Assembly: GCA_022548915.1 (NCBI GenBank)
Contig: JAKZES010000008.1
Span: forward strand, 62,001 to 126,000
DNA length: 64,000 nt
Source of the DNA: Verrucomicrobiaceae bacterium E54
Lineage (GTDB): Bacteria > Verrucomicrobiota > Verrucomicrobiia > Verrucomicrobiales > Akkermansiaceae
Reading direction: 5' to 3'
The number at the start of each line of letters is the position of its first letter. Within the stretch, counting starts at the first letter, position 1. Both the position numbers and the translations under genes were made by a program. Shown here piece after piece: positions 1-55,050 of this stretch. Under the pieces are notes generated by a model. It was not told the origin of the DNA. It saw only the letters and a program-made list of their open reading frames with translations, and ran no database searches.

Positions 1-479
1 ATGAAATCTCCCTGACCATCCTGATTCCACCGAATCACGCCGCTTACCTCCTCGTCTTCTTTGAGGCCGACTTCCCAGATCCCGCTTTTGAAACGAATCG
101 CCGGGCCATCTTGCGGATTGTCTCGGACTTCAGACAACAGCACCCGGAATTCCCCGAAGTCGCCGTTTGGGATTTCTGTGATTTTCACCCGGTCAACTGC
201 GAGTCCATCACCGCCGAGGGTTCCACCGGGAAGATGAAGTACTGGATCGATGGCACCCACGCAACCGAGACCGTCGGAAATTGGATGATTGAATGTATCG
301 TGACCGGAAAACCAGTCACGCCCATTGAAGGCGAAGGCCCTTACGGCACCCGTGTCACTCCGGAAAACATGGAACTCATTTCGCAGGCCTTTTTCCGCGG
401 TTACGAGCGCTACACCAGAACCCACCCGGAAGACACAAGATGGACCATTCAAATGCTCGAAGAAGCCGGCAAACCCTGA
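1..479 (+). CDS. SGNH-like polysaccharide acyltransferase partner, C-terminal part only
   Basis: The reading frame is already open at the left edge (first whole codon at base 3), so only the last ~159 residues are present. The segment is clearly paralogous to the complete protein at 7944-9149: both carry WDF-DFHP-NC, then MKYW, then a D-x-x-H motif (DGTH here, DFNH there), then YGTR-TP. D-x-x-H is the usual block V (catalytic Asp/His) of SGNH hydrolase-fold enzymes such as the AlgJ/AlgX/DltD-like partners of MBOAT acyltransferases. The likely role is O-acylation of an exported polysaccharide. Whether an MBOAT gene lies next to it cannot be seen. The SGNH fold and acyl-transfer role are inferred from motifs and from the paralogue's neighbour. 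Confidence 0.6.
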   Translation, partial: EISLTILIPPNHAAYLLVFFEADFPDPAFETNRRAILRIVSDFRQQHPEFPEVAVWDFCDFHPVNCESITAEGSTGKMKYWIDGTHATETVGNWMIECIVTGKPVTPIEGEGPYGTRVTPENMELISQAFFRGYERYTRTHPEDTRWTIQMLEEAGKP

Positions 480-529
480 GTCCGCACTCCCGGGAATAAG
501 GCCGCTCCCCCAAGATAGACGGTCCGTCA

Positions 530-1456
530 CTACTTGAGGATCCAGCCGAGCACACAAATCACCAACGCAATCAGGAGCGCTATCGGCAACCACTGCCTGA
601 CACGTCGTTTTCTCCTCTCCTGCCTCGTCTCATGGTGGGCGCGATGGATTGCCTCGACCAACCGGAACGCGGACCGGACCGCCTGGGGAGAATCCAGCAA
701 GCCGGTGATCGTCTGAAACATCATCTGGGTCATCATCGACTGGTCCCTTTCAGCCGGATTCGCCCCCGCGACCCGGCCTTCCTTCTCCGCGGAGACCTTC
801 TTCCAGTTCCGCGTGCGCATCCTCGCCCAATAGCCGGCAGCGGGGTCAAACGCGATCTTGCCCGCCGCGGCGATACGCAGCAGATACGCCTCGTCCCAAG
901 CGGTACAAACCGGGTCGCGCCAGGCAGCCCGGGCGACTTCGGTCCGGAAAATCCCGTGAATGATGAAACAGTCCCGCGTGATTGTCTCCCTCGTCAACAA
1001 GCGCTCGAACACATCATCGGACATCAATCCCTCGCCGTAGGTCATCGGCTTCTTCATCGCAATGGGACGACTACCCTCATCCATGTGCCTTACCTGCGCT
1101 GCAGCCAACACAGCATCAGGGTGCCGCCCGAGAGCGTCCAACAGGATGCCGACCGCCCCGTCGTCGAGGCGATCATGAGCGCCCACCCAATGAAAGAACT
1201 CCGTATCACACTCGAAGAGGGCGTGGCGGAAGTTTGCAAACGCACCAATATTCTTCTGATGCCGGATGTAGACGCACCCGTCGTGCTCCGCCGCGAACCG
1301 CTCACACAACTCGCGAGTCCCATCGGTCGAGCAGTTGTCGTAGATCAACAGGCGCTCCGTCTGGCCCACGCACGACTCGAGGGCCTCCACGATATATCGC
1401 TCCTCATTGAATACGGGAACCGCCGTCGTCAGCGAACTCAAGTCAATATCCGACAT
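530..1456 (-). CDS. GT2-family glycosyltransferase with C-terminal membrane anchor
   Basis: This 308-residue protein opens with a GT-A nucleotide-sugar binding fold: VPVFNEERYI near residue 13, then YDNCSTDGT near residue 40, the classic family 2 pattern. An acidic AHDRLDD stretch near residue 93 replaces the usual DxD metal-binding site. The last ~25 residues form one hydrophobic helix (LPIALLIALVICVLGWIL) preceded by a cluster of Arg/Lys, so the enzyme is probably tethered to the inner face of the cytoplasmic membrane. It is the last gene of the CDP-sugar operon and probably transfers the modified sugar, or a neighbouring residue, to a lipid-linked glycan. Donor and acceptor cannot be read from the sequence. 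Confidence 0.85.
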   Translation of the reverse strand: MSDIDLSSLTTAVPVFNEERYIVEALESCVGQTERLLIYDNCSTDGTRELCERFAAEHDGCVYIRHQKNIGAFANFRHALFECDTEFFHWVGAHDRLDDGAVGILLDALGRHPDAVLAAAQVRHMDEGSRPIAMKKPMTYGEGLMSDDVFERLLTRETITRDCFIIHGIFRTEVARAAWRDPVCTAWDEAYLLRIAAAGKIAFDPAAGYWARMRTRNWKKVSAEKEGRVAGANPAERDQSMMTQMMFQTITGLLDSPQAVRSAFRLVEAIHRAHHETRQERRKRRVRQWLPIALLIALVICVLGWILK

Positions 1457-1497
1457 GATGTCCGAACCGCTTCGCCTTTACATTCAGCTTCCACCCA

Positions 1498-2238
1498 TCA
1501 GCGGATCCGCCTCAGGTAGCCTCCTCCTGCCACGCTGATCAGGATCTTGTCGTCCAAGCCGCGATCAACCTCGAAGGCATCGGTTTCCTTCAGGTATTCG
1601 TTCACCGCGGTCCGGGGATTATCGCCGGGAGCCCAGGGCCTGTCCGAGGAAAACTCCGCCGGAAGATCCTCGACCACCGTGTCAAAGACCACACAGTAAC
1701 TATCTTTCGTCACCAGGGGGGCGAAGGCCCGCAACTCGGCAAGGACATGCTCATGGGTGTGATTGCTGTCCAGCAGTACCATCACCCGCCTGCGGCCCTC
1801 TGCCTCGATCCGCACCTGCCCGACAACCTCCGGAGCAATGCTGGAGCCCTCGATCATGCGGATTCGGCGTGCCATGGGATGCGCCTCGATCGCCTTCCGG
1901 TTGTGCTCGCGAATCTCGATGTCAACGGCCACGACTTTGGCATCAGCGGGACCGCCGCAAGCCGCGTTGAGTTCAAGCATGGATGCGGAGAAGATGATTG
2001 ATCCTCCATGGGCAATGCCGGTTTCAATGATGAGGTCGGGCTGAACCGAATAGATCAGCTCCTGCGTTGCCACGATATCCTGCGGGTACTGGATGATGGG
2101 TCGGCCCATCCACCGGAAATTGTAGGAGTACTTCGCCGGTATGCTCGCCTCCATGAACCCGGCGGCAGCACGTTTCAACCCCTCATCGGCTCCATTGGCC
2201 GCGATCCGTCCGGCAACTTCTTCTTCAAATGGTCTCAT
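1498..2238 (-). CDS. CmcI-type (cephalosporin hydroxylase family) methyltransferase
   Basis: This 246-residue protein has the layout of the CmcI/rhamnosyl O-methyltransferase family. IIETGIAHGGSIIF near residue 70 is the SAM-binding glycine loop, VVAVDIEI the following acidic strand, and VMVLLDSNHTHEHV near residue 155 the metal/catalytic Asp-His region. In polysaccharide clusters such proteins usually O-methylate deoxysugars despite the hydroxylase family name. Its ATG overlaps the stop of the upstream methyltransferase as ATGA (2235-2238), so the two are probably translationally coupled. It is the second of three methyltransferases in the operon, pointing to a heavily methylated sugar. The exact position methylated is unknown. 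Confidence 0.75.
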   Translation of the reverse strand: MRPFEEEVAGRIAANGADEGLKRAAAGFMEASIPAKYSYNFRWMGRPIIQYPQDIVATQELIYSVQPDLIIETGIAHGGSIIFSASMLELNAACGGPADAKVVAVDIEIREHNRKAIEAHPMARRIRMIEGSSIAPEVVGQVRIEAEGRRRVMVLLDSNHTHEHVLAELRAFAPLVTKDSYCVVFDTVVEDLPAEFSSDRPWAPGDNPRTAVNEYLKETDAFEVDRGLDDKILISVAGGGYLRRIR

Positions 2239-3290
2239 AACTGGTCAATTGCGATCAATCGGTATTGGTTCCGGGTCATCGCCCGAATCTCTTCAAGATA
2301 ATTGGAGTTCATCACACACAGGTTCGAACCCGGCTCAAGGAGTTCGAAAACCCGTTCCGGGTTCTTCACCTCGATGCCGGTGGCCGGCAAATAGCGTCCC
2401 TGTTTCACGGGGTTGATATCGAACACCTGATCGACCGCCACCCCCGCTCGCTCGGCCATCAGGGAGAAAATCACTCCCTTCGAAGACCCTCCCCAGATGG
2501 CCGATCTTCCTTCGCGCAACCGGCTCACGCTGGATTCGATACCAGCGGCAAAGTCCTCCGGGAAATCCACCATATCGACCATCGCCGGTGTCATCACCGA
2601 GGAAAGGTCGGCAACCACGTAGAGATACTGCTCTCCAAAGACCCGCCCCGACTCCAGCACCCGGCCGAAGATGCGGTGGAAGTCACTCAGGCGAAAATAG
2701 TTCACATGCTCGTAGAACACATCAAACCACGAACGGTGCTCCATGATCCAGTCGAAGCACGGCACCTCAATGTAGATCAGCCCCTTGCCTCCGTTGGACT
2801 CACACAGATGCTCCAGGAAGGCAACGGGATCTGGGATATGCTCCAATACGTGACGCAGGATCAGGGCGTCACCCCGCAGCCCCGTCGCAGGTCCGAAATA
2901 CTCCTTCCGGATCCCCGGGTCGTCACCCTCATAGGTCGGATCGAGGCCGGTCACCGTGAATCCGGACTCCCTCAAATGCCGCAGAAACCAGCCCTTCCCA
3001 CACCCGACCTCGATGAGATCCATGCTTTCGAAGTGGCCGCGGATGATTTCCGTCACCCGATCGAGGTGCGCCCGGAAACTTCCACTAACCGCCTGTTCGT
3101 TCTGGTAGTCCGCATCGTAGTCGACCCGCGACGGATCGAAGTCCGCGTTGAAAATCAGCCCCGTTTTCAGGTCCTGCACCAGGCGCATGTCCCCCCTGGG
3201 GCAGTCCCGCGCCTCTTCCGCCGTCGGATAGACGACGTTCTGAAAAACCGGAAGTCCGGCCACACGGTAGAGTTCCTGAATCTGGCTCAT
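2235..3290 (-). CDS. SAM-dependent methyltransferase with C-terminal sugar C-methyltransferase-like domain
   Basis: This is a class I methyltransferase of about 351 residues. LIEVGCGKGWFLRHL (~95-110) is motif I, GLDPTYEG gives the motif II acid, and LRHVLEHIPDPVAFLEHL is typical of the Methyltransf_23 group. The C-terminal half (AIWGGSSKGVIFSLM ... GRYLPATGIEV) resembles the C-terminal domain of sugar C-methyltransferases and matches the equivalent part of the protein at 4190-5419. Unlike that protein it has no N-terminal cysteine zinc cluster. I chose the ATG at 3290 because it forms an ATGA overlap with the upstream stop; an in-frame ATG at 3299 is possible. It may act on a second sugar or be a diverged duplicate of the 4190-5419 gene. 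Confidence 0.75.
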   Translation of the reverse strand: MSQIQELYRVAGLPVFQNVVYPTAEEARDCPRGDMRLVQDLKTGLIFNADFDPSRVDYDADYQNEQAVSGSFRAHLDRVTEIIRGHFESMDLIEVGCGKGWFLRHLRESGFTVTGLDPTYEGDDPGIRKEYFGPATGLRGDALILRHVLEHIPDPVAFLEHLCESNGGKGLIYIEVPCFDWIMEHRSWFDVFYEHVNYFRLSDFHRIFGRVLESGRVFGEQYLYVVADLSSVMTPAMVDMVDFPEDFAAGIESSVSRLREGRSAIWGGSSKGVIFSLMAERAGVAVDQVFDINPVKQGRYLPATGIEVKNPERVFELLEPGSNLCVMNSNYLEEIRAMTRNQYRLIAIDQL

Positions 3291-4129
3291 GACAGACATT
3301 GCTTCAGCTTCTCCCGCGATCCCCAGAACGACATCGCTTCGTAATCAGGATAGGGATAACGCCCCAGATTCAGTTTCAACTCCCAGCCATTCTCCTCCAG
3401 CCACTCCTCGACCTGCTCCCGCACGGTCTTCGGTCTTCCCGAGCAGATATTCACCACCCCGTGGTCACCGCCACCCAGGGTGAGTCGAACCAAAGCATCC
3501 GCGACTTCGGTCACCGGCACGAAGTCGCGTACCTGTTCGCCGCCCGACATGTCCAGAACCCCGGTCCCCTTTGCCGCAGCAGCAAGCTGCGGCAACAAGG
3601 CCCTCTCCGATTGCCCCTCTCCATAAACATAAAATATCCGCCCCCACGTCAGCCCAAACGCCGACTGCTCGCGCCGTTGTTCCAACCATCGCCGCAACCG
3701 GTCCTTGGATATCCCGTAGGCCGTGTCCGGAGCCGCCTCCATACCTTCCCAAAGCTCCCCTTCCCGGATCCCGTACTCGAGACAGGTTCCGGCGACGGTC
3801 AGCGACTTCAGACCGGCCGCGAGCAATTCGCCAAGGAAGGCCTTGTGCGCCGGCAGTTCCTCAACCAGGTGGGACTCCTTTCGAAAATTCGGAAGGCCGC
3901 CCCAGGCGAGGTGGATCACCCGGTCGGGACAACCCAACTTCTCGTATGCGCCTTTCGGATCGTCGCGAATATCAAGATGGCGACTCTCCGGTGCGTCCTC
4001 CAGCGCACGGGCCGCCGCCACGATTTTCACAGGCTCCTCGCGAAGCCTGGCCATGACATGCCGGCCCAGAAAACCGGTTGCTCCGGTGACGACCACCGTT
4101 TCTCGTAGATCCTCTGGCTGTACCTTCAC
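3287..4129 (-). CDS. NAD(P)-dependent epimerase/dehydratase (extended SDR), probable 4-ketoreductase
   Basis: This 280-residue protein has the extended-SDR signature: VTGATGFLGRHV near residue 14 (dinucleotide-binding loop), a TCLEYG segment near 115, and YGISK near 138 (catalytic Tyr and Lys). The final third (VRDFVPVTEVADALV) is the typical substrate-domain strand. In CDP/dTDP-deoxysugar pathways this position is usually filled by the reductase that converts the C-methylated 4-keto sugar to the final nucleotide sugar. That assignment follows from its place directly downstream of the C-methyltransferase and is inference. A 60-bp gap separates it from that gene, whereas downstream it overlaps the next gene by 4 bp. 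Confidence 0.8.
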   Translation of the reverse strand: MKVQPEDLRETVVVTGATGFLGRHVMARLREEPVKIVAAARALEDAPESRHLDIRDDPKGAYEKLGCPDRVIHLAWGGLPNFRKESHLVEELPAHKAFLGELLAAGLKSLTVAGTCLEYGIREGELWEGMEAAPDTAYGISKDRLRRWLEQRREQSAFGLTWGRIFYVYGEGQSERALLPQLAAAAKGTGVLDMSGGEQVRDFVPVTEVADALVRLTLGGGDHGVVNICSGRPKTVREQVEEWLEENGWELKLNLGRYPYPDYEAMSFWGSREKLKQCLS

Positions 4130-4189
4130 GCAACACTCATTTCTCTGTGGCCATCAGGGGCTGCCGACAAGCCGTTATTGGGAGGTTCT

Positions 4190-5419
4190 TCATCCATGAA
4201 TCTCCAACCCCGGCACCGCCGTCACCAACTTTGTGCCGCCTCTTCGCAGCACTTCAAGCTGGGACATCAACTCATCCTTGAGGTTCCAGGGGAAGATGAT
4301 CACGTAATCCGGTGCACTTTCCAGCAGCACGCTCTCTTCGACGATAGGAATCCGGCTACCTGGGAGGAACTTTCCCTGCTTTCCGGGACTGCGATCTGCC
4401 ACGAACTCGATCAGGTCGCCCCGGACCCCCGCAAAATTGAGCAATGTGTTTCCCTTTGCGGCGGCTCCGTAACCGGCGACGCGCTTGCCCTTCCTCCGGG
4501 CGTCCACGAGAAACTCGATGAACCCCATCTTCACCGACTCCGCCTTCGGTTGGAAACCCTCATAGAACGCACGCTGGGTCATTCCCGCGGACTTCTCCAA
4601 CTCCAGCAGGTCCCTGACCTCCGCGCTCACGAGGCGATCGATCCCATCGAGTCGATCCGCAAAAATCCTCAGACTCCCGCCATGGGTCGGCAATCGCTCG
4701 ACATCGATGATCCGCAGGCCATTCGCTTCAAAGATGGCCTTCACCGCAGTCAGCGAGAGGTAGGAAAAGTGCTCATGGTAAATCGTGTCAAACTGGCAAC
4801 CCTCGACCAGCTCCAGCAAGTGGGGGAACTCGAAGCTCGCCACACCGGACGGCTTGAGCAGTTCGGCAAACCCACTGACGAAGTCGTTGATGTCGGGCAC
4901 GTGGGCGAGCACGTTGTTGGCGATCATCAAATCCGCCGCCCAACCCTGACGCGCCAGATTGGCTCCGACACGGCGGCCGAAAAACTCCTCGACCACCTCG
5001 ATTCCGCGATTCCTGGCCAGCTCCGCAGTGCTGTGGGTCGGTTCGATGCCAAGGCACGGGATCCCCCGCTCCTGCACATACTGGAGAAGATAGCCGTCGT
5101 TCGACGCGACCTCGACCACACGTGAATCGCCATTCAGCCCGAAACGATCGGACGCCTCACCCACGAACCGCTCGCAGTGCCGCAGCCAGCTTTCCGACAT
5201 GGCGCTGAAGTAGCCGTAATCCGGGTCGAAGAGCGCATCGGCACGCGTGAAATCCTCCGTCTGCACCAGCCAGCAATTCTCGCACACGCCCACCCGCAGG
5301 GGGAACCAGAGCTCCGGCTCAGAGAGCTTGGCGGGTGTCAGATACGCGTTGGAGGGGGGCGCACTCCCGAGATCGAGGAAGGGCAGACGAACCGGGGTCT
5401 GACAATGGCGGCAATTCAC
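4190..5419 (-). CDS. Sugar C-methyltransferase (NovU/TylCIII-type, three domains)
   Basis: The ~409-residue protein shows the full three-part architecture. An N-terminal zinc-type cluster (CRHC near residue 3, CENC near residue 47) matches Methyltransf_13. A SAM-binding core (VVEVASNDGYLLQY, then GIEPTHST, then NNVLAHVPDINDFV) follows. A C-terminal domain contains VAGYGAAAKGNTLLNF, the Methyltransf_14 signature. Characterised relatives methylate carbon 3 of a 4-keto-6-deoxy nucleotide sugar. The GTG start at 5419 is chosen because it gives a GTGA overlap with the epimerase stop and places the first Cys at residue 3, as in the family; a longer frame to 5500 would run far into the upstream gene. 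With RfbF/RfbG upstream, a branched CDP-6-deoxyhexose is the likely product. Confidence 0.85.
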   Translation of the reverse strand: MNCRHCQTPVRLPFLDLGSAPPSNAYLTPAKLSEPELWFPLRVGVCENCWLVQTEDFTRADALFDPDYGYFSAMSESWLRHCERFVGEASDRFGLNGDSRVVEVASNDGYLLQYVQERGIPCLGIEPTHSTAELARNRGIEVVEEFFGRRVGANLARQGWAADLMIANNVLAHVPDINDFVSGFAELLKPSGVASFEFPHLLELVEGCQFDTIYHEHFSYLSLTAVKAIFEANGLRIIDVERLPTHGGSLRIFADRLDGIDRLVSAEVRDLLELEKSAGMTQRAFYEGFQPKAESVKMGFIEFLVDARRKGKRVAGYGAAAKGNTLLNFAGVRGDLIEFVADRSPGKQGKFLPGSRIPIVEESVLLESAPDYVIIFPWNLKDELMSQLEVLRRGGTKLVTAVPGLEIHG

Positions 5420-15391: not shown

Positions 15392-18082
15392 TCATCCGAG
15401 CGCCTCGATCATCTCCTCGAGCTGACCGAGCTTCTCGCGCCACTCCTCCAGCCGGGCCTTTTCCTGATCGACCACCGCAGCCGGTGCCCGCTCGACGAAA
15501 CTCGCGTTGCCCAGCTTGCCTTCCGACTTCTTCACCTCTCCCCGGATCTTCTCGATCTCCCTGCCGAGGCGCTCACGCTCGGCCTCGACATCGATCAGGC
15601 CATCGAGCGGCATCGCCACCTCGCCCACATCCGTCAGCGCCGCCGGGGTTCCCTTGGGCGCCTCGTATGCGTCCTCCAACTCGATCTCCCCCGCCCCGGC
15701 GAGCAGGGCGAGCACGTCCTTCTCCGACGAAAGCCAGTCCGGCGCGCCCTTCACGACAAGGCGCACGTCGCGACGCGACGCCACGTTGTATTCGGCCTTG
15801 AGGTTCCGGAGCTTCCCCGCCGAAGCATAGATCGCCGACGCCCGCTTGGCTGCCTCGTGCGACTCCCGCCCTGCAAGCAACGGCTCGCTCGCCAGCGTCC
15901 GGCTCATGAGGAACTCTCCCTCGGGAACATAGCCCATCCGTTCGGAAAGCTCCTCGGTCACGTGCGGCATGTAGGGGTGCAACAACTGGAGGAAGCGCGA
16001 CATGGTCGCGTCGAACACCGCCAGCGTGACCTCGCGGGCGTCCGCGGACGCATCGTCACGCAGGTCTCCCTTCACCGCCTCGAGGAACTTGTCGCAGAAC
16101 TCGCTCCACAGGAATTCGTAGAGCCGCTGCGAGATCTCGCCGAATCGATAGTCCGCGTACAACCCCTCCAGATCCACCGCCAGGCGATCCAGCTTCGCCA
16201 TGATATCCAAATGGTAGGGCCGCAAGGCCTCTTGCTTTGGAACTTGGAACTTGGAACTTGGAACTTCGCCGCTTGCCATCTGCCGGAACCGGCAGGCGTT
16301 GTAGAGTTTATTGGCGAAATTCCGCCCTTCCTCGATCTGAGTTTCGTCGAAGCGGATGTCCGTGCCCACCGGCGCGATCCGCATCAGACCGAAGCGCAGT
16401 CCGTCGGCACCATACTTGTCCATCAGGTCGATCGGGTCCGGCGAGTTGCCCAGCGACTTGCTCATCTTGCGCCCCTTGAGGTCGCGGATGAGCGCGGTGA
16501 AATACACGTTCTTGAAGGGCAGCCGCTCCTCGAAGCGGTAGCCCGCCATGATCATCCGTGCGACCCAGAAGAACAGGATGTCCGGACCGGTCACCAGGTC
16601 GGTGGTCGGGTAGAACTTCTCCAGAGTCTCGCTGCGCTCGCCAACATCCGACATCGTCGCGAAGGGCCAGAGCCAGGAGCTGAACCAGGTGTCCATCACG
16701 TCCTCGTCGCGGACCCACGCGTTCTCGTCGGCCGGAGGCTCGACACCGACGTGGATGTCGCCCTTTTCAAAGTCCGACATGTCGAGCGACTCGGCGCCCT
16801 TCAGCGCGTCGAGCTTGTCCTTGCGGTACCACACCGGGATCTGGTGGCCCCACCACAGTTGGCGGCTGATGCACCAGTCCTGGATGTTCTCCAGCCAGTG
16901 GGCGTAGGTCTTCGCCCAGCGAGCCGGGCGGAAAGTGATGTCACCGTCGGCGACCGCCTTCGCGGCCTCCTCGACGCAGGGATATTTCAGGAACCACTGC
17001 ATCGAGATCCGCGGCTCGACCGGCACGTCGGCCCGCTCCGAGAAGCCGACGTTGTTCTCGTATTCCTCGACCTCGAGCAGCAGACCCATTTCCTCGAGCT
17101 TCTTCGCCGCCACCTTGCGCGCCTTGAAGCGGTCGAGACCGTCGAGGTCCGGGCAGTCGGGGCAGTTCACGGTGCCGTCCGGGTGGAGCACGTCGATGAT
17201 GTCGAGGTCGTTCTTGATCCCGATCTCGAAGTCCGCCTTGTCGTGCGCCGGGGTGATCTTCAGCGCGCCGGTGCCGAATTCGATGTCGACATGTTCGTCG
17301 GCGACGACCGGAATCTCCGCTTCGGGAAACGGTCTGCGGACCTTGCGGCCGATGTGTTTCGCGTAGCGCGGATCCTTCGGATTCACCGCCACCGCCACGT
17401 CGCCCATCAGGGTCTCGGGACGGGTCGTGGAAATGTGCAGGTACTCGCCCGGTTCATCCACCAACTCGTAGCGCATCGTGTAGAGCTTCGAGCGCTGCGG
17501 CTTCATGATCACCTCCTCGTCGGAGAGGGCGGTGAGCGAGACCGGGCACCAGTTCACCATCCGCTTGCCGCGGTAGATCAGGCCCTGCTTGAAGAGTTCG
17601 ACGAAGACGTGGCTCACCCATTCGGTGTAGCCTTCATCCATGGTGAAGCGCTCGCGCGACCAGTCGCAGGAGCAACCGAGGCGCTTGAGTTGCTTGATGA
17701 TGATCCCCCCGTGGTGCTCCTTGAAGTCCCAAACCTTTTCCAGGAACGCCTCGCGTCCCAGGTCGCGGCGGCTCTTGCCCTCCTCCTCGCGCAACTGGCG
17801 CTCGACCTTGGTCTGGGTCGCGATGCCGGCGTGGTCGGTGCCGGGCAGCCAAAGCACCTCCCGGCCCTCCTGGCGCGCGCGGCGGGCGAGGATGTCCTGC
17901 AGCGAGTTGTTCAGCACGTGGCCGAGGTGCAGGATGCCGGTGACGTTCGGCGGCGGGATGACGATCGAGTAAGCCGGCTTGTCCGAGGACGGATCGGCCT
18001 CGAAACACTTCCCTTCCAGCCAAGCGGCATACCACTTCGCTTCCACAGACTGAGGCTCATACGCTTTCGCCAGTTCGGACAT
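15392..18082 (-). CDS. valS: Valyl-tRNA synthetase
   Basis: The 896-residue class Ia synthetase has PPPNVTGILHLGHVLNN (HIGH motif, ~38-54), editing-domain sequence in the middle, GRKMSKSLGNS near residue 535 (KMSKS), an anticodon-binding domain, and a C-terminal coiled coil (EAERERLGREIEKIRGEVKKSEG). ATG 18082 gives the normal N-terminus (MSELAKAYEPQSVEAKWY). Odd feature: between the catalytic and anticodon-binding domains (~604-616) the linker SSKFQVPKQ is encoded by four copies of a 7-bp repeat that also occurs at 36950-36991. A terminator-like hairpin lies in its leader (18152-18225). Confidence 0.97.
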   Translation of the reverse strand: MSELAKAYEPQSVEAKWYAAWLEGKCFEADPSSDKPAYSIVIPPPNVTGILHLGHVLNNSLQDILARRARQEGREVLWLPGTDHAGIATQTKVERQLREEEGKSRRDLGREAFLEKVWDFKEHHGGIIIKQLKRLGCSCDWSRERFTMDEGYTEWVSHVFVELFKQGLIYRGKRMVNWCPVSLTALSDEEVIMKPQRSKLYTMRYELVDEPGEYLHISTTRPETLMGDVAVAVNPKDPRYAKHIGRKVRRPFPEAEIPVVADEHVDIEFGTGALKITPAHDKADFEIGIKNDLDIIDVLHPDGTVNCPDCPDLDGLDRFKARKVAAKKLEEMGLLLEVEEYENNVGFSERADVPVEPRISMQWFLKYPCVEEAAKAVADGDITFRPARWAKTYAHWLENIQDWCISRQLWWGHQIPVWYRKDKLDALKGAESLDMSDFEKGDIHVGVEPPADENAWVRDEDVMDTWFSSWLWPFATMSDVGERSETLEKFYPTTDLVTGPDILFFWVARMIMAGYRFEERLPFKNVYFTALIRDLKGRKMSKSLGNSPDPIDLMDKYGADGLRFGLMRIAPVGTDIRFDETQIEEGRNFANKLYNACRFRQMASGEVPSSKFQVPKQEALRPYHLDIMAKLDRLAVDLEGLYADYRFGEISQRLYEFLWSEFCDKFLEAVKGDLRDDASADAREVTLAVFDATMSRFLQLLHPYMPHVTEELSERMGYVPEGEFLMSRTLASEPLLAGRESHEAAKRASAIYASAGKLRNLKAEYNVASRRDVRLVVKGAPDWLSSEKDVLALLAGAGEIELEDAYEAPKGTPAALTDVGEVAMPLDGLIDVEAERERLGREIEKIRGEVKKSEGKLGNASFVERAPAAVVDQEKARLEEWREKLGQLEEMIEALG
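16239..16266. repeat. In-frame heptanucleotide tract (GGAACTT x4) inside valS
   Basis: Four perfect tandem copies of GGAACTT on the plus strand, which is AAGTTCC in the coding direction. They encode part of SSKFQVPKQ in the domain linker of ValRS. Six copies of the same unit occur at 36950-36991, about 20.7 kb away. Confidence 0.9.
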
Positions 18083-31128: not shown

Positions 31129-34100
31129 ATGCACCGCGTTTTCGTCGAAAAGAGAGCTGAGTTCGCCAATGAAGCCCGCCGCCTTCTGCGCGAACTCCAG
31201 GAGTCTCTCGAACTCCGCCATCTGAACGGGCTCCGCCTCGTCCAGCGCTACGACCTCGAAGGCCTCGAGGATGCCGAGTTCGATCTGGCCGTGGCCAACG
31301 TGCTCTCCGAGCCGCAGACCGATGTCGCACTCCGGGAGCTGGCGATCCCCGACGGTACTCGCGCGTTCGCCGTCGAGTATCTGCCGGGGCAGTTCGACCA
31401 GCGGGCCGACTCCGCCGCCCAGTGCCTCCAGATCCTCACCGGAAAGGAGCGCCCGGTCGTGGCCTCGGCCCGCGTGATCCTGCTCGAGGGCTCTATCTCC
31501 GAGGCCGAACTCGACGCGATCAAGCGCTACGTGATCAACGCCGTGGATTCGCACGAAGCGTCGATGGCCCTGCCGGACACGCTCGACCATCCAACCCCTC
31601 CGCCACCGGACGTGGAGCTTCTCGAAGGCTTCGGCGAGCGCGATCCCGCGACGGTGCGCGCGGATCTCGGCCTCGCAATGTCGGCCGAGGACGTGGCGTT
31701 CTGCCAGAAGTACTTCTCGGGCGAAGAGCAGCGCGACCCGTCGATCACCGAGATCCGGATGCTCGACACCTACTGGTCGGATCATTGCCGCCACACAACT
31801 TTCCTGACGCGGATCGAGGACGTCACCTTCGACGAGGGCACCGAACCCATCCAGCGGGCGTGGAAGACCTACCTCGACGTCCGCGGGAAGCTCGGCCGCG
31901 AGGAAAAGCCGGTCACCCTGATGGATATCGCCCTCGCCGGCATGCGAGAGCTGCGCGCCTCGGGCGAACTCGACAACCTCGAGGAGTCCGAGGAGATCAA
32001 TGCCGCCTCGATCATCGTTCCGGTCGAGATCTCCCCCACTCCCGGCTCCACGCTCTCCGCCCCCCGCTCCGAGGAATGGCTGATCCAGTTCAAGAACGAG
32101 ACCCACAACCACCCGACCGAGATCGAGCCCTTCGGCGGTGCCGCCACCTGTCTCGGCGGCTGCATCCGCGACCCGCTCTCCGGGCGTTCCTACGTCTATC
32201 AGGCGATGCGCGTCACCGGTGCCGCCAATCCACTCGCCCCCTTCTCGGAAACGCTTCCGGGGAAGCTGCCGCAGCGGAAAATCTGCCAGATTGCGGCGGA
32301 AGGCTACGCCTCCTACGGAAACCAGATCGGCCTCGCCACCGGACAGGTCGCCGAGGTCTATCACCCCGGCTACCTCGCGAAGCGCATGGAAATCGGGGCG
32401 GTGGTGGCCGCCGCGCCGCGGGAAAACGTCTTCCGCGGCAGCCCGTCAGCCGGCGACCTCATCCTGCTCATCGGCGGCCGCACCGGACGTGACGGCGTCG
32501 GCGGTGCCACCGGATCCTCGAAGGAACACGACGACTCCGCGCTCGAGAATTCCGCCGAGGTCCAGAAGGGCGACGCCCCGACCGAACGCAAGATCCAGCG
32601 CCTCTTCCGCAACGCCGATCTGGCCAGGCGCATCAAGATCTGCAACGACTTCGGCGCCGGCGGCGTGTCGGTCGCCATCGGCGAAATCGCCCCCTCGCTC
32701 GACATCGAACTCGATGCGGTGACCAAGAAATACGACGGTCTCGATGGCACCGAGTTGGCCATCTCCGAGTCGCAGGAGCGCATGGCCGTGTGCGTCGACC
32801 CGGCGGATCTCGACTTCTTTGTCGCCGCCTCCGACGCCGAGAATCTCGAATGCACCCATGTTGCCACCGTCGCCGACCACGGGCGCCTGCGCATGACCTG
32901 GCGCGGCAAGACGATCGTCGATCTCTCCCGCGCCTTCCTCGACACCAACGGCGTCCAACAGAGCGCCACCATCCACGTCAACTCACCCACACCGCCGAAG
33001 GACAACGATCACTGCTCACCGATCACTGATCACTTGGCGCAGCTCAACCACTGCTCCCAGAAGGGCCTCGGCGAAATGTTCGACGGCTCGGTGGGTGCCG
33101 GCACCGTGCTCTGGCCTTTCGGCGGCGAAAGGCAGCTCACGCCGCCCGATGCCATGGTGGCGAAGCTCCCCCTGCTCGAAGGCGACACCGACACCTGCTC
33201 CTACATGAGCTGGGCCTACGATCCGTATCGTAGTTCCGATTCCCCCTTCCACGGTTCGGCATGGGCCGTCACCGAGTCCGCTCTCAAGTGTGTTGCCGCC
33301 GGAGCGCGCCTGTCCGACATCCGCCTGACCCTGCAGGAATATTTTCCCAAGCTCGGCGACGATCCGTCCCGCTGGGGACTCCCCTTCGCTGCATTGCTCG
33401 GCGCCTTCGATGCCCAGCATGGCCTGCGTCTCGCCGCCATCGGCGGCAAGGACTCGATGTCGGGTTCCTTCAACGAGCTCGACGTCCCGCCGACGCTGGT
33501 CTCCTTCGCTCTTGCGCCGGGTCAGGCCAGCCTCGCGCTCTCCCCCGAATTCAAGGAAGCCGGCTCCACCGTGAGCCTCGTCGAGGTACCTCCGACCGAA
33601 GAAGGACTTCCCGACTACCCTGCCATCCTCGCCCTCGCGACCCAACTCCACGGCCTCAACAAGTCCGGTGGCATCCTTTCCATGAAGCATGTCGGCAGCC
33701 CGGGCCTCGCCCATGCCCTCGCCGTCTGCTGCTTCGGCAACCACCTCGGCTTCCAACGGACCGCCGATCTCCGAATCGGCACCCCCCCCATGCCGGCCGC
33801 CTTCCTCATCGAGCACAGCGAACCCCTGCACCCCTCGCTCGGTGCCGTCGAGATCGGCTCCGTCACCGACGAGCCCATCCTCGAACTCGGCCATCAATCC
33901 CACTCCCTCGATGACCTCCTGAAGGCCTGGACCGGCACCCTCGAACCCGTCTATCCCACCCGGCCCGAGGAAACCCCCGTCTCATCGGTTCCCGCCGATC
34001 TTCCGATCGCATCTCCGCCTTCCCCACTCCGCGCTCCCCGCTCCCCGCTCCCTGCCCCCAAGGTCGTGATCCCGGCCTTCCCGGGCACCAACTCGGAGTA

Positions 34101-34851
34101 TGACTCCGCCAAGGCCTTCCGCGAAGCCGGGGCAGAAAGCGAAATCCTCGTCTTCCGCAACCTCACCGCCGCCCACCTCGACGAGTCCCTCGCCGCTCTG
34201 GCCGCGAAAATCCGCGAGTCGCAGATCCTTTTCCTGCCAGGCGGCTTCAGCTCCGGGGACGAACCCGACGGCTCCGCCAAGTTCATCACCGCCGTGCTGC
34301 GCAGCCCCCGAGTCGCCGAGGCCGTGATGGACCTGCTGCAGAACCGCGACGGCCTCATCCTCGGCATCTGCAACGGCTTCCAGGCCCTGATCAAGACCGG
34401 CCTCGTTCCCTACGGCGAGATCCGCGAGCCCGACCCGGCATCACCCACTCTGTTCCACAACGACATCGGTCGTCACGTCTCGTGCTACGCGCGCACCCGC
34501 ATCGCTTCCACCCTTTCCCCGTGGTTCGCCGGGTGCCGCGAGGGCGACCTTCATCGGGTCCCCGTTTCCCATGGCGAGGGCAAGTTCATCGCCGACGCCG
34601 AGACCCTCCAACAGCTTGCAGCCGCCGGGCAGATCGCGACCCAGTACTGCGACGCCGACGGCCGGCCTTCAATGGACATCGCCCACAACCCGAACGGCTC
34701 GCACGCGGCCGTCGAGGGCCTCACCAGCCCCTGCGGCCGGGTGCTTGGAAAAATGGGCCACACCGAGCGCCGCGGCACCCACGTCGCGAAAAACATCCCC
34801 GGCAACAAGCACCAACCGCTCTTCAAGGCCGGCGTGCGCTGGTTCTCGTAA
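31129..34851 (+). CDS. purL: Phosphoribosylformylglycinamidine synthase, single-chain long form
   Basis: The 1240-residue enzyme combines a PurS-like start, two AIRS-type synthase halves and a C-terminal glutaminase. Landmarks are YWSDHCRHTTF (~217), FKNETHNHPTEIEPFGGAAT (~322), NVCSQKGL-like NHCSQKGLGEMFD (~642), and the glutaminase with FPGTNSEYDSA (~985) and nucleophile C1081 in LGICNGFQ. It converts FGAR, glutamine and ATP to FGAM in purine synthesis. Three linkers are built from 7-bp tandem repeats (32031-32073, 33007-33034, 34014-34055), all in frame. Flanked by hairpins, it appears monocistronic. Confidence 0.97.
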   Translation: MHRVFVEKRAEFANEARRLLRELQESLELRHLNGLRLVQRYDLEGLEDAEFDLAVANVLSEPQTDVALRELAIPDGTRAFAVEYLPGQFDQRADSAAQCLQILTGKERPVVASARVILLEGSISEAELDAIKRYVINAVDSHEASMALPDTLDHPTPPPPDVELLEGFGERDPATVRADLGLAMSAEDVAFCQKYFSGEEQRDPSITEIRMLDTYWSDHCRHTTFLTRIEDVTFDEGTEPIQRAWKTYLDVRGKLGREEKPVTLMDIALAGMRELRASGELDNLEESEEINAASIIVPVEISPTPGSTLSAPRSEEWLIQFKNETHNHPTEIEPFGGAATCLGGCIRDPLSGRSYVYQAMRVTGAANPLAPFSETLPGKLPQRKICQIAAEGYASYGNQIGLATGQVAEVYHPGYLAKRMEIGAVVAAAPRENVFRGSPSAGDLILLIGGRTGRDGVGGATGSSKEHDDSALENSAEVQKGDAPTERKIQRLFRNADLARRIKICNDFGAGGVSVAIGEIAPSLDIELDAVTKKYDGLDGTELAISESQERMAVCVDPADLDFFVAASDAENLECTHVATVADHGRLRMTWRGKTIVDLSRAFLDTNGVQQSATIHVNSPTPPKDNDHCSPITDHLAQLNHCSQKGLGEMFDGSVGAGTVLWPFGGERQLTPPDAMVAKLPLLEGDTDTCSYMSWAYDPYRSSDSPFHGSAWAVTESALKCVAAGARLSDIRLTLQEYFPKLGDDPSRWGLPFAALLGAFDAQHGLRLAAIGGKDSMSGSFNELDVPPTLVSFALAPGQASLALSPEFKEAGSTVSLVEVPPTEEGLPDYPAILALATQLHGLNKSGGILSMKHVGSPGLAHALAVCCFGNHLGFQRTADLRIGTPPMPAAFLIEHSEPLHPSLGAVEIGSVTDEPILELGHQSHSLDDLLKAWTGTLEPVYPTRPEETPVSSVPADLPIASPPSPLRAPRSPLPAPKVVIPAFPGTNSEYDSAKAFREAGAESEILVFRNLTAAHLDESLAALAAKIRESQILFLPGGFSSGDEPDGSAKFITAVLRSPRVAEAVMDLLQNRDGLILGICNGFQALIKTGLVPYGEIREPDPASPTLFHNDIGRHVSCYARTRIASTLSPWFAGCREGDLHRVPVSHGEGKFIADAETLQQLAAAGQIATQYCDADGRPSMDIAHNPNGSHAAVEGLTSPCGRVLGKMGHTERRGTHVAKNIPGNKHQPLFKAGVRWFS
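32031..32073. repeat. Degenerate heptad tract (CTCCNNG-type) in purL
   Basis: In 7-bp register from 32039: CTCCCGG, CTCCACG, CTCTCCG, CCCCCCG, CTCCGAG, with one more CTCCCCC unit offset by a base upstream. It encodes the linker PTPGSTLSAPRS just before the conserved EEWLIQFKNETHNHP. Confidence 0.55.
33007..33034. repeat. Heptad tract (GATCACT-type) in purL
   Basis: Four consecutive units: GATCACT, GCTCACC, GATCACT, GATCACT. They encode DHCSPITDHL in a linker that joins the two synthase halves, directly before the conserved CSQKGLGEMFD segment. Confidence 0.85.
34014..34055. repeat. Heptad tract (TCCCCGC-type) in purL
   Basis: Six consecutive units: TCCGCCT, TCCCCAC, TCCGCGC, TCCCCGC, TCCCCGC, TCCCTGC. 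They encode SPLRAPRSPLPAP in the linker between the synthase and glutaminase domains. Confidence 0.85.
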
Positions 34852-35895: not shown

Positions 35896-36894
35896 TCAAC
35901 GACCGGCCGCATCGGGCAACAGGGCATTTACCATGATCCGCGCCACTTCCGTGCCCGAATAGTCGCGGTGATTCCTTTCCCATCCCTTGCGGGCGATCGC
36001 CTCGCGGGCCTCGCGGTCGCCGACGAACCGCCGGACCCTTTCAACGAGTTCGTCGATGCCCTCGAAGTAAACGATCTCATCCTCGGCGTAGAGCTTCTCC
36101 AGTCCCGCCCCACGCGGGGTGAGGGTGAGGATGCCGTTGCCCATCAACTCGGCAATGCGTGACGAGGAATAGAGTTCGACATCGTTGCGCCGGGAAAGGT
36201 TGAGCGCCATTTTCGAGCGGCGGATGACTTGTTCCTTCTCCCAACCCATGATCAGCGGCCGGTCGAGGCAGCCGTAGTAGCCGAGGCTCAGGTCGGGCAG
36301 CCGCGCCTTCAGCTCCTCGAGAAAGGCCCTGCGTTCCGGTTGCCCCTTGTCGCGACCGAAGAACAGGAGGTCGTGCACCATTTCTCCGTCGGGCGTCTCG
36401 AAGGCGCGATGGCATTCGATGCCCGCATCGACCGCGCTGGGAATGAAGTGGGCCGGGCAATCCGCCGTGGCGAACGACTCCAGCAAGGGACCGCCGGTCG
36501 AACAGAAAAGCGCGTCCAGCACCGGCACCCGGTCGCGCAGGTGGCGGGTGGGCTCCTCGTCCCAGAGCGGGTCGACATACCAGAGGCCGATCCGGATCTC
36601 CGGAAGGAGGTGGCGGATCTCGCGCAGGGTGTCGGCCGAAATCCACTGGGCATGGCCGAGGATCAGCAGGTCGGGATGCACGTTCCGGCATGTTTCGATC
36701 AGCGCCTTTTGGGTCCTGCCCTTGCCGAAGGTCTTGCTCCCGGTCGGCGAAAACATCCGTGCCCGGTCGTTGATCGAGAACGGATAGACAAAGTGCCCGA
36801 GCCGCACGAGGCCGTGGTGGATTTTCTGATCCTGGTTCCACAGGTGCGCCCCGTCCTTGTCGAACTGGAGGTTGCAGGCGTGGACGATGCGCAT
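35896..36894 (-). CDS. CgeB-like GT-B glycosyltransferase
   Basis: A 332-residue protein starting MRIVHACNLQFDKDGAHLWN. The C-terminal half has LFFGRDKGQPERRAFLEEL, SKMALNLSRRNDVELYSSSRIAELMGNGILTLTP and EDEIVYFEGIDELVERV, which is the donor-domain pattern of CgeB/Glyco_trans_1_2 proteins. No membrane helix. It is divergent from the GT4 gene at 37005 and separated from it by an inverted heptad repeat, so the two probably act in the same glycan pathway. Substrates unknown. Confidence 0.8.
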   Translation of the reverse strand: MRIVHACNLQFDKDGAHLWNQDQKIHHGLVRLGHFVYPFSINDRARMFSPTGSKTFGKGRTQKALIETCRNVHPDLLILGHAQWISADTLREIRHLLPEIRIGLWYVDPLWDEEPTRHLRDRVPVLDALFCSTGGPLLESFATADCPAHFIPSAVDAGIECHRAFETPDGEMVHDLLFFGRDKGQPERRAFLEELKARLPDLSLGYYGCLDRPLIMGWEKEQVIRRSKMALNLSRRNDVELYSSSRIAELMGNGILTLTPRGAGLEKLYAEDEIVYFEGIDELVERVRRFVGDREAREAIARKGWERNHRDYSGTEVARIMVNALLPDAAGR

Positions 36895-36914
36895 GGGCGC
36901 AGCCTACGGCGGCG

Positions 36915-36942
36915 AAGTTCCAAGTGAGAAGTTCCAAGTGCC
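36915..36942. repeat. Heptad tract, inverted arm
   Basis: Four 7-bp units AAGTTCC, AAGTGAG, AAGTTCC, AAGTGCC on the plus strand: the reverse complement of the GGAACTT array that starts 8 bp further on. Together they can form a long hairpin with a 7-nt loop (AAACCCT). Confidence 0.85.
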
Positions 36943-36949
36943 AAACCCT

Positions 36950-36991
36950 GGAACTTGGAACTTGGAACTTGGAACTTGGAACTTGGAACTT
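36950..36991. repeat. Heptad array GGAACTT x6
   Basis: Six perfect tandem copies ending 13 bp before the ATG of the GT4 gene. It shares its unit with the tract inside valS (16239-16266). Read in the GT4 frame it would give LELGTWNLELGTW, but a normal ATG lies downstream at 37005, so it is treated as untranslated leader. Confidence 0.92.
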
Positions 36992-37004
36992 GAAGCTCCG
37001 AGCC

Positions 37005-38033
37005 ATGTTCCGGGTTTGTCATGTGCTTGCCAGCGTCGGCGAAAAGGGTGGGCTCGAGAAGAACGTGATCGAACTCGCGAATCGCCAGGCGTCGCTGGGG
37101 CACGAGGTGAGCGCCGTGGCCGACGAGACCATGCGTCCTCACTTCTCCAAGGACGTCCGCTTCATCCCCCACCCCATGCGGGCGGGCCGCCTGAATCCCC
37201 TGAACCGGGCGGCGCTGCGCAAGCGCATCCTTTCGACCCGTGCCCAGATCGTCCACGCCCACGCCAACAAGGCCGGGGCACTGGTGCGCTCGATCCGAAA
37301 GGGTCTCGGCCGGATGAAGCGGGTGGCGACCGTCCAGAACATCAAGCGCAGTCCGGCACCGTTCCGCGACTACGACGCCGTGATCACCGCCTCGGCCCAG
37401 GTGCGCGACTCTCTGGGCGGCATCCCCGCCACCGTCATTTGGAATTCGATCGAGCCTCCACCGTCCGGCACGCGGGAAGCCGCCCTGGCCACCGATCCAC
37501 CCTTTGTCGGTGGGGATGAACCGGTGTTCTGCACCGTCGGCCGGCTGGTCCCCGCCAAGGGAATGGACCTCCTTCTGGAAGCCACCGCCCGGGTTCCCGG
37601 TTTCAAGCTCTGGATCGTCGGCGACGGCAACCAGCGGAAACAGCTGGAGCAGATCATTGCGAAGCAGGAGTTGTCCGACCGGGTCTGGATGGCCGGTCAT
37701 CGCGATGACGCGGTCGGGCTGATGGGGTGCGCGGATCTCTTCATCGTCGCCTCCCGCAACGAAGGCGGGCCCTACACCCTGGCCGAGGCCCTTCACATGC
37801 AGGTGCCGTGCATTTCGACGAAGGTCGGGTTCGCCCCCGAATTCCTGCCCGAAGAGGCGCTGATGGACACCCACTCGGTCGACGAGCTCGAGCGGGGTCT
37901 GCGCCTGGCTCTTGAGAAACCCGACGCTCTGAAGGCGAAGCTTGAGCCGTCCTACAAACTGGTCGCCCGCGAGGTGACCCTCGATGCAATGACCCGCAAG
38001 GTACTCGCGCTCTACGAGAGAATCACCGGGTGA
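37005..38033 (+). CDS. GT4-family glycosyltransferase
   Basis: The 342-residue GT-B enzyme begins MFRVCHVLASVGEKGGLEKNV, the acceptor-side glycine loop of GT4. The donor half shows FCTVGRLVPAKGMDLLLEA, LWIVGDGNQRKQLEQI, RVWMAGHRDDAVGLMG and VASRNEGGPYTLAEAL, which is the E-x7-E nucleotide-sugar site with a replaced first Glu region. ATG 37005 is the natural start; an upstream in-frame ATG would translate the heptad array. Its end overlaps the convergent HAD gene by 11 bp. Confidence 0.88.
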   Translation: MFRVCHVLASVGEKGGLEKNVIELANRQASLGHEVSAVADETMRPHFSKDVRFIPHPMRAGRLNPLNRAALRKRILSTRAQIVHAHANKAGALVRSIRKGLGRMKRVATVQNIKRSPAPFRDYDAVITASAQVRDSLGGIPATVIWNSIEPPPSGTREAALATDPPFVGGDEPVFCTVGRLVPAKGMDLLLEATARVPGFKLWIVGDGNQRKQLEQIIAKQELSDRVWMAGHRDDAVGLMGCADLFIVASRNEGGPYTLAEALHMQVPCISTKVGFAPEFLPEEALMDTHSVDELERGLRLALEKPDALKAKLEPSYKLVAREVTLDAMTRKVLALYERITG

Positions 38034-54116: not shown

Positions 54117-54120
<4 letters not shown>

Positions 54121-55016
54121 GCCAGGACCCCTACGACTTCCTCGACCACGACCTGCTCTCCCGGCTCGGATCACTGCCGGTCGAGAGCCGGATGCCGATG
54201 GTCGGCAACGTCGCCGGCAAGCACCGCTCGCCGCATCGCGGCTCGTCGGTCGAGTTCGCCGAATACCGGAAATACGTGCCGGGCGACGACACCCGGCGCC
54301 TCGACTGGAAGGCTTTCGCCCGCTCGGACCGTTTCTACATCAAGGAATTCGAGGCCGACACCAACCTCCGCGCCTATTTCGTGGTCGACGCCTCCGGCTC
54401 GATGAATTTTTCCGGCCACGGCGAAAGCAAGGTCGAGTTCGCCCGGCGCATTGCCGCATCGCTCTCCTATCTGCTGGTCAACCAGGGTGATGCCGCCGGA
54501 CTTTCACTCTGCACGGAGAAGCTCCACCTCGAGATCCCACCAAGCCGGCGCGCCGCGCACCTCCAGCGGATCTTCGACACCCTCAAGGATCTCGAGCCCG
54601 AAGGTGAAACCGGCCTGGTCGATGCGCTGCACACGATCGCCGAGAAGATCGCCCAGCGCGCCTTCGTCGTGATCCTCTCCGACCTATTCACCGATCCCGG
54701 CGGCTTCTCCGACGCCCTCCAGCACCTGCGCTATCGCAAGCACGACATCTCGGTCTTCCACCTGATGGATCCGCAGGAACTCAGCTTCGATTTCGAGCGA
54801 CCGCACCGCTTCGTCGACCTGGAGGATAATACGTCACTCGTCGTAGAACCCACGCTGGTGGCCGAGGAATACCACACGGCCCTGAACGACTTCATGAAGG
54901 CCGTGCGTGACAAGTGCCACGACGCCAATGCCGACTACCAACTCGTCCCCACCGACACCCCGCTCGAACCGTTGCTGCGCGAGTTCCTGACCGCACGGCT
55001 GCCGAAGGGGAAATGA
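54117..55016 (+). CDS. DUF58 domain protein
   Basis: The 299-residue protein has the DUF58 signature HRGSSVEFAEYRKYVPGDDTRRLDWKAFARSDRFYIKEFE (~40-80 in pieces) and a VWA-like fold with a complete metal site start DASGSMNF (~90). DUF58 proteins couple to MoxR and BatA-type proteins. GTG 54117 overlaps the moxR stop by 4 bp. Its TGA lies at the edge of a heptad array (from 55016), which marks the insertion point of the four-helix-bundle gene. Confidence 0.93.
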
Positions 55017-55050
55017 ATGTCAAATGACGAATGTTAAATGACTAATGGAT
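55016..55050. repeat. AATG-type heptad array upstream of (and into) the four-helix-bundle gene
   Basis: Five consecutive 7-bp units: AATGTCA, AATGACG, AATGTTA, AATGACT, AATGGAT. The first overlaps the DUF58 stop by one base, and the fifth supplies the ATG of the next gene (55045). An inverted counterpart lies at 55438-55465. Confidence 0.85.

Follow-up and report, generated by a model that had tools for sequence, protein, structure and literature searches.

A heptad repeat inside valS of Verrucomicrobiaceae bacterium E54, probably a copy from a family of short dispersed repeats of its genus

Results and Discussion

The valyl-tRNA synthetase (ValRS) gene of Verrucomicrobiaceae bacterium E54 carries a perfect GGAACTT repeat, which is probably an intragenic copy of a genus family of short dispersed repeats and most likely neutral in valS, whereas other copies, standing at gene starts, may act in cis as a leader element. 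The window, i.e. the whole stretch of DNA that was analysed (64 kb, C244:62001-126000), belongs to a genome of 5.9 Mb in 255 contigs and contains the gene and its repeat as follows:

15392-18082, minus strand: valS, coding for a valyl-tRNA synthetase of 896 aa with ATG 18082 as start
16239-16266, plus strand: (GGAACTT)4, four perfect units, with the minus-strand reading EVPSSKFQVPK within ValRS

The open reading frame was assigned to ValRS by its Pfam matches (PF00133, PF08264 and PF10458). As the first-pass annotation of this DNA had stated, the four copies are perfect and in frame, and they cover approximately residues 606-615, past the class I core (16-579) and ahead of the Anticodon_1 domain (627-775), which confirms their placement in the linker between the catalytic and the anticodon-binding domains. 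A second array of the same unit, described as six copies at 36950, is likewise perfect (36950-36991).

A repeat family of the genus

Using the pattern GGAACTTGGAACTT with at most one mismatch we found nine matches in the window, where 0.01 are expected. The whole genome contains 57 exact 14-mer matches against none of the reversed control and 128 matches of GGAACTTNNNACTTGGAACTT (at most two mismatches) against one, overlapping matches inside one array being counted separately in these genome-wide counts. Both the window count and the genome counts exclude a chance origin. They also support the copying that had been proposed from the two loci in the window, but the source is a genome-wide family and not two loci, so that two-locus copying is replaced by a family of ninety or more clusters. 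Its commonest form is not the plain array but a 28-bp module, GGMACTT-GGAACTT-CTCACTT-GGAACTT, which can be written as NN-CACTTGGAACTT twice, and the valS tract is this four-heptad module in reverse orientation. From 67 sequences of the genome (the window and 66 further stretches) we compiled 94 clusters, 74 of them intergenic and 20 in called genes, some of the latter being due to errors in the called starts (e.g. L248); raw pattern matches in these sequences amounted to 215 compared to none in one Markov-1 shuffle. An Rfam scan of the window gave no family at gathering score.

Within the genus the pattern with at most one mismatch is present in 12 of 18 genomes, E54 included, with no matches of the reversed controls. 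E54 has 87 matches, followed by G008 (43), G011 (27), G006 (20) and G014 (15), while seven others have 3-14 and six have none. In a draw of 387 genomes from the phylum, a longer pattern with up to three mismatches was found in 15 genomes: six of the seven genus members are positive with 5-87 matches each, and the nine positive genomes outside the genus have 1-3 each, which is no more than for the reversed control (about 20 genomes, mostly with 1-6 matches). The module can thus be regarded as a mark of the genus. One genome (G411) has 222 matches of the reversed control, apparently a heptad word of its own in another species, and a looser pattern searched exactly was found in at least 115 stretches, of which 80 were listed, across many phyla.

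Position at gene starts and stops

The family is located mainly in spacers, with the ...ACTT 3' end directed toward the coding region at preferred distances. Gene borders were called with a codon-model program of our own, which is known to misplace some starts, and 72 of the 74 intergenic clusters have called neighbours on both sides. Assuming uniform placement in the spacer and taking the last GGAACTT-like heptad as the 3' end, 18 of the 49 start-facing copies end 18-21 nt before the start (2.0 expected) and 16 end 2-7 nt before it (3.7 expected), with five at 8-17 nt (5.9 expected) and ten farther away (31.9 expected). A stem of at least 5 bp follows within 22 nt in 15/49 of these copies compared to 14/378 control starts. 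The stems vary (CGGAGCC, CGCAGCC, CGAGGC, CGGACCC, CCGAGGC) with the pairing kept, and 13 of the 15 belong to the 18-21 nt class, so that the hairpin accounts for most of the difference between the two distance classes; several of the 18-21 nt gaps in E54 have an imperfect hairpin or none. Possibly the hairpin is looped out, in which case the last heptad would effectively stay at much the same distance from the start codon. This spacing suggests that the intergenic copies at starts serve as leader elements that act in cis through the mRNA. An NCBIfam scan of 20 of the 46 downstream genes named tmk, coaD, dapF, panB, trpC, pth, truA, ruvC, glmS, rbfA, mnmA, leuB, pyrD and rsgA, and five of the 20 gave no match.

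At the other end of genes, 10 of the 23 end-facing copies abut the stop codon (-3 to +5 nt; 4.4 expected, P 0.0016), and in five of the listed cases the TGA is completed by the A of AAGTTCC. A role as translation leader alone does not account for these reversed copies, which need another reading, for example a function at the mRNA 3' end or at the DNA level. A replacement of the Shine-Dalgarno sequence is also unsupported, as motifs of this kind are rare anyway, being found at 30/216 starts without and 3/27 starts with the element (window and L045-L078).

Both orientations meet in one spacer of the window, which is composed as follows:

35896-36894, minus strand: gene 3' of the minus-strand module, no NCBIfam match
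36895-37004: divergent spacer of 110 bp holding two opposed copies, i.e. a long inverted repeat
36898-36914, minus strand: imperfect hairpin CGCCGCCGTAGGCTGCG in the gap from module to start codon, failing the 5-bp stem cut-off
36915-36942, minus strand: canonical module GGCACTT-GGAACTT-CTCACTT-GGAACTT, separated by 20 nt from the called start of 35896-36894
36950-36991, plus strand: (GGAACTT)6 array, with 13 nt between it and ATG 37005 of the gene to the right
37005-38033, plus strand: glycosyltransferase-like gene 3' of the plus-strand array, all NCBIfam matches below the curated cut-offs

For the last gene the caller had put the start at GTG 37023 in the same frame as ATG 37005. With two opposed copies sharing one spacer, its RNA can be predicted to fold into a long hairpin, the minimum free energy of 36895-37006 being -51.9 kcal/mol (z -5.0).

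In two relatives, G011 and G006, the module also stands before starts and, reversed, after stops, here without the hairpin. Of the start-facing copies, 11 of 13 in G011 stand 6-13 nt ahead of the start codon, compared to only five of ten within 13 nt in G006, where the rest are at 30-118 nt. These long distances in G006, together with the copies of both genomes that have no hairpin, count against the leader model. Comparison of 20 stretches of G011 with 17 of G006 gave seven pairs that align, and elements at the same site were seen in at least four of them. Judged by eye, the module precedes dapF in 4/18 genomes and the L240 gene, which has no NCBIfam match, in 8/16 genomes plus two partial cases; in 5/16 the latter gene is also followed by a reversed copy.

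A repeat that is selfish and mobile, spread by a transposase in the manner of REP/RAYT or Rickettsia palindromes and found at starts and stops merely as harmless sites, appears rather unlikely to us. It would account for the dispersal in both orientations, in genes and in spacers, and Y1 transposase matches (PF01797) occur in all 18 genus genomes, 17 of them in E54, in numbers that follow those of the module (Spearman 0.62, p 0.006, relatedness being ignored). However, none of the four Y1 loci examined, which include one of the 17 from E54, has a module: L365-L367 carry a different palindrome and for the fourth none was found, a single AAGTTCC in L367 being the only related heptad, and harmless landing alone predicts neither the peaks at 2-7 and 18-21 nt nor the common orthologous sites. 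The palindromes of L365-L367 come in pairs such as CCACGGGG(TTCA)CCCCGTGG.

The intergenic copies might instead be a binding site in double-stranded DNA for a transcription factor or nucleoid protein and not an RNA leader, which we consider unlikely. Both orientations are used, three heptads make up 21 bp or about two helical turns, and in a first count 22 of 66 intergenic clusters were located in divergent spacers. On the other hand, some copies begin a few nucleotides past the upstream stop codon in tandem gene runs, and stems that change but stay paired are easier to read at the RNA level. GGAACTT may resemble -35 sites of ECF sigma factors, and GGA may resemble CsrA sites.

Beyond the leader element itself, we think it doubtful that the four-heptad leader, with or without a looped-out hairpin and at a set effective distance from start codons, serves as a genome-wide translation or mRNA-boundary signal in a genome where most starts lack Shine-Dalgarno-like motifs, with the same process writing heptads into permissive loops of essential enzymes. 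If true, one DNA process would shape both leaders and proteins.

Origin of the repeat in valS

The nearest relative, G014, carries a decayed module at the corresponding site of its valS, with 25/33 bases identical to the module, whereas 20,000 codon shuffles gave 21/33 at best and the valS linkers of six other species match the module at 15 bases or fewer. Five of the eight changes in G014 are at third codon positions. Read in reverse, the module gives EVPSEKFQVPK, compared to EVPSSKFQVPK in ValRS of E54 and DVPGEKAQVPK in that of G014. As G014 keeps this decayed version, a module-like sequence probably stood in the linker of the ancestor common to both, judging from the sequence, and would then have decayed in G014 and been homogenised in the lineage of E54. 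An insertion into valS, as the first-pass annotation had it, is therefore supported by sequence but not by length, since the linkers of E54 and G014 are equally long. The same linker peptide in non-repetitive codons, which it had named as evidence against its reading, is found only in part and in G014 only, the linkers of the other 16 genus genomes being unrelated. Other species have both shorter and longer linkers, and PDB entry 1gax, ValRS from Thermus, is about six residues shorter than E54 in this region; as the E54 linker is no longer than those of relatives, a clean empty site is absent.

With respect to the mechanism, copies might arrive through some copying or repair process and would be kept in genes only if they can be read without stop codons and the loop tolerates them; in the lineage of E54 the third valS heptad would then have been homogenised by slippage or conversion, leading to four perfect units. 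The repeat in valS is most likely a neutral passenger, to be read as a probably harmless extra loop. A structure model of E54 ValRS, poor as a whole (mean pLDDT 60.7, pTM 0.51), has mostly coil between the helices 580-602 and 622-643.

Local replication slippage as the only source, with the valS array grown in place from linker codons and the array at 36950 as a parallel event, is quite improbable. The tract is perfect, seven is the main non-triplet period, and the arrays at L066 (2971-3012) and L076 (3009-3050) drift blockwise (e.g. AAGTTCC, AAACTCC, AAACTCT, GAACTCT), as if by stepwise slippage; nevertheless, the same word is present at some 90 other clusters, and G014 agrees with the module, deviant third unit included, at the 25/33 bases given above. 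Slippage may still be the source of the homogenised third unit. That SSKFQVPK is a selected functional linker is very improbable: the tract is in frame and G014 has a related peptide, but the linker is hypervariable across the genus in sequence and length, which speaks against a conserved linker peptide, and the same reading recurs in unrelated proteins.

Heptads inside other proteins

In-frame copies of the module are also found in leuS, priA, a U32 peptidase gene and imuB- and dnaE-like genes. By eye, the corresponding loop of LeuRS has its default form in 11/17 genomes and is filled in 6/17, with differing heptads in E54 and G011 and a hairpin-type sequence in G014, G017, G015 and G012. In PriA, where the loop was readable in 15/18 genomes, E54 has GAAGTTCC- and GATCACT-type heptads together with hairpins, and other heptad-like fillings are present in G014, G006, G008 and G011. 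Both peptide readings of E54 (L329), SAKSEVPS and LITDHRSLITPAK, are shared with G013 (L332) and absent from the closer relative G014. As G013 is fairly distant, not every loop filling is species-specific. Up to three in-frame heptad-like tracts were seen in purL (31129-34851, plus strand):

32034-32070, plus strand: heptad-like tract, in frame
33006-33034, plus strand: GATCACT tract, in frame, the unit also being present in PriA (L236)
34013-34052, plus strand: CGCTCCC tract, in frame, reading SPPSPLRAPRSPLP

The densest set of heptads seen belongs to the imuB/dnaE-like cluster L055 (C122:60000-66000), which continues in L232 and has seven clusters by pattern at 267-4518.

Comparison with known heptad repeats

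Genus-level intergenic heptads are already known, while the GGAACTT module is newly described here; no published account of it in this genus was found among the matches listed from a partly covered literature. In the parts of the report available to us, the GGGAATC and GGGGA(C/T)T heptamers of Xanthomonas and Nostoc amount to 186 sets in one Xanthomonas genome and 183 in another, most of them with four units, about 90% intergenic and including inverted pairs; they show opposite strand preference at starts and stops within 0-50 bp, overlap with stop codons and are able to form G-quadruplexes, with the G-rich strand upstream of starts being non-coding (PMC4692102). GGAACTT is similar in its 7-nt unit, in its many dispersed sets and in the intergenic position of 74/94 clusters, and in form also in the opposite strand preference, but its GG unit is on the coding strand, and with only two adjacent G it lacks the G-runs of a quadruplex. 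A fixed module with a deviant third unit, peaks in start distance and a paired hairpin are features of the present family for which we saw no counterpart in those parts of the Xanthomonas/Nostoc report (PMC4692102).

The TAACTGA repeats of Beggiatoaceae, with 169 sets of two to six copies of one unit, are mostly located within several nucleotides upstream of start codons, are scattered in other phyla and have been proposed to act in translation, according to the portion of the paper seen (PMC4679880). GGAACTT copies can be equally close to starts (16/49 at 2-7 nt) with a different unit, whereas that portion describes neither a hairpin nor a stop-codon class for TAACTGA (PMC4679880). Rickettsia palindromic elements of about 150 bp are inserted in frame in unrelated metabolic genes, as stated in the accessible part of a review (PMC10969869); our in-frame copies in unrelated conserved genes (valS, leuS, priA, the U32 peptidase gene and imuB/dnaE-like genes) are comparable, but they are 28-bp direct-repeat modules from a mostly intergenic family and not palindromes of that length. 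Borg tandem repeats, in the excerpt used, are genome-specific and occur between genes and inside proteins, as the heptads do, with in-gene units that are multiples of three (PMC9879509), whereas the 7-nt heptads are read through three frames. Seven-base repeats are much favoured in many bacterial genomes. With a fixed module, preferred start distances, a paired hairpin and repeated entry into the same enzyme loops, the present family makes both the formation of such repeats and a putative role as leader directly testable.

Seven-base periods beyond the module

Among runs of at least ten matches with non-triplet periods of 4-17 in coding DNA, 12 were at period 7 and 11 at period 14 in E54 (at most two elsewhere) and six and five in the relatives (again at most two elsewhere), where the E54 stretches had been chosen for repeats and leuS and priA of the relatives because the E54 copies carry heptads. 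For spacers, a general 7-nt periodicity of the genus is weak: the lag-7 excess reaches z 5.6 in loci of relatives that include the dapF and L240 sites and z 3.2 in the window, falling to z 1.4 without the GGAACTT spacer, and where loci were selected without regard to repeats, period 7 barely exceeds periods 8 and 9. In the window, a tract of GAATGTC/AAATGAC heptads (55015-55047) starts within the stop codon of the gene at 54117-55016.
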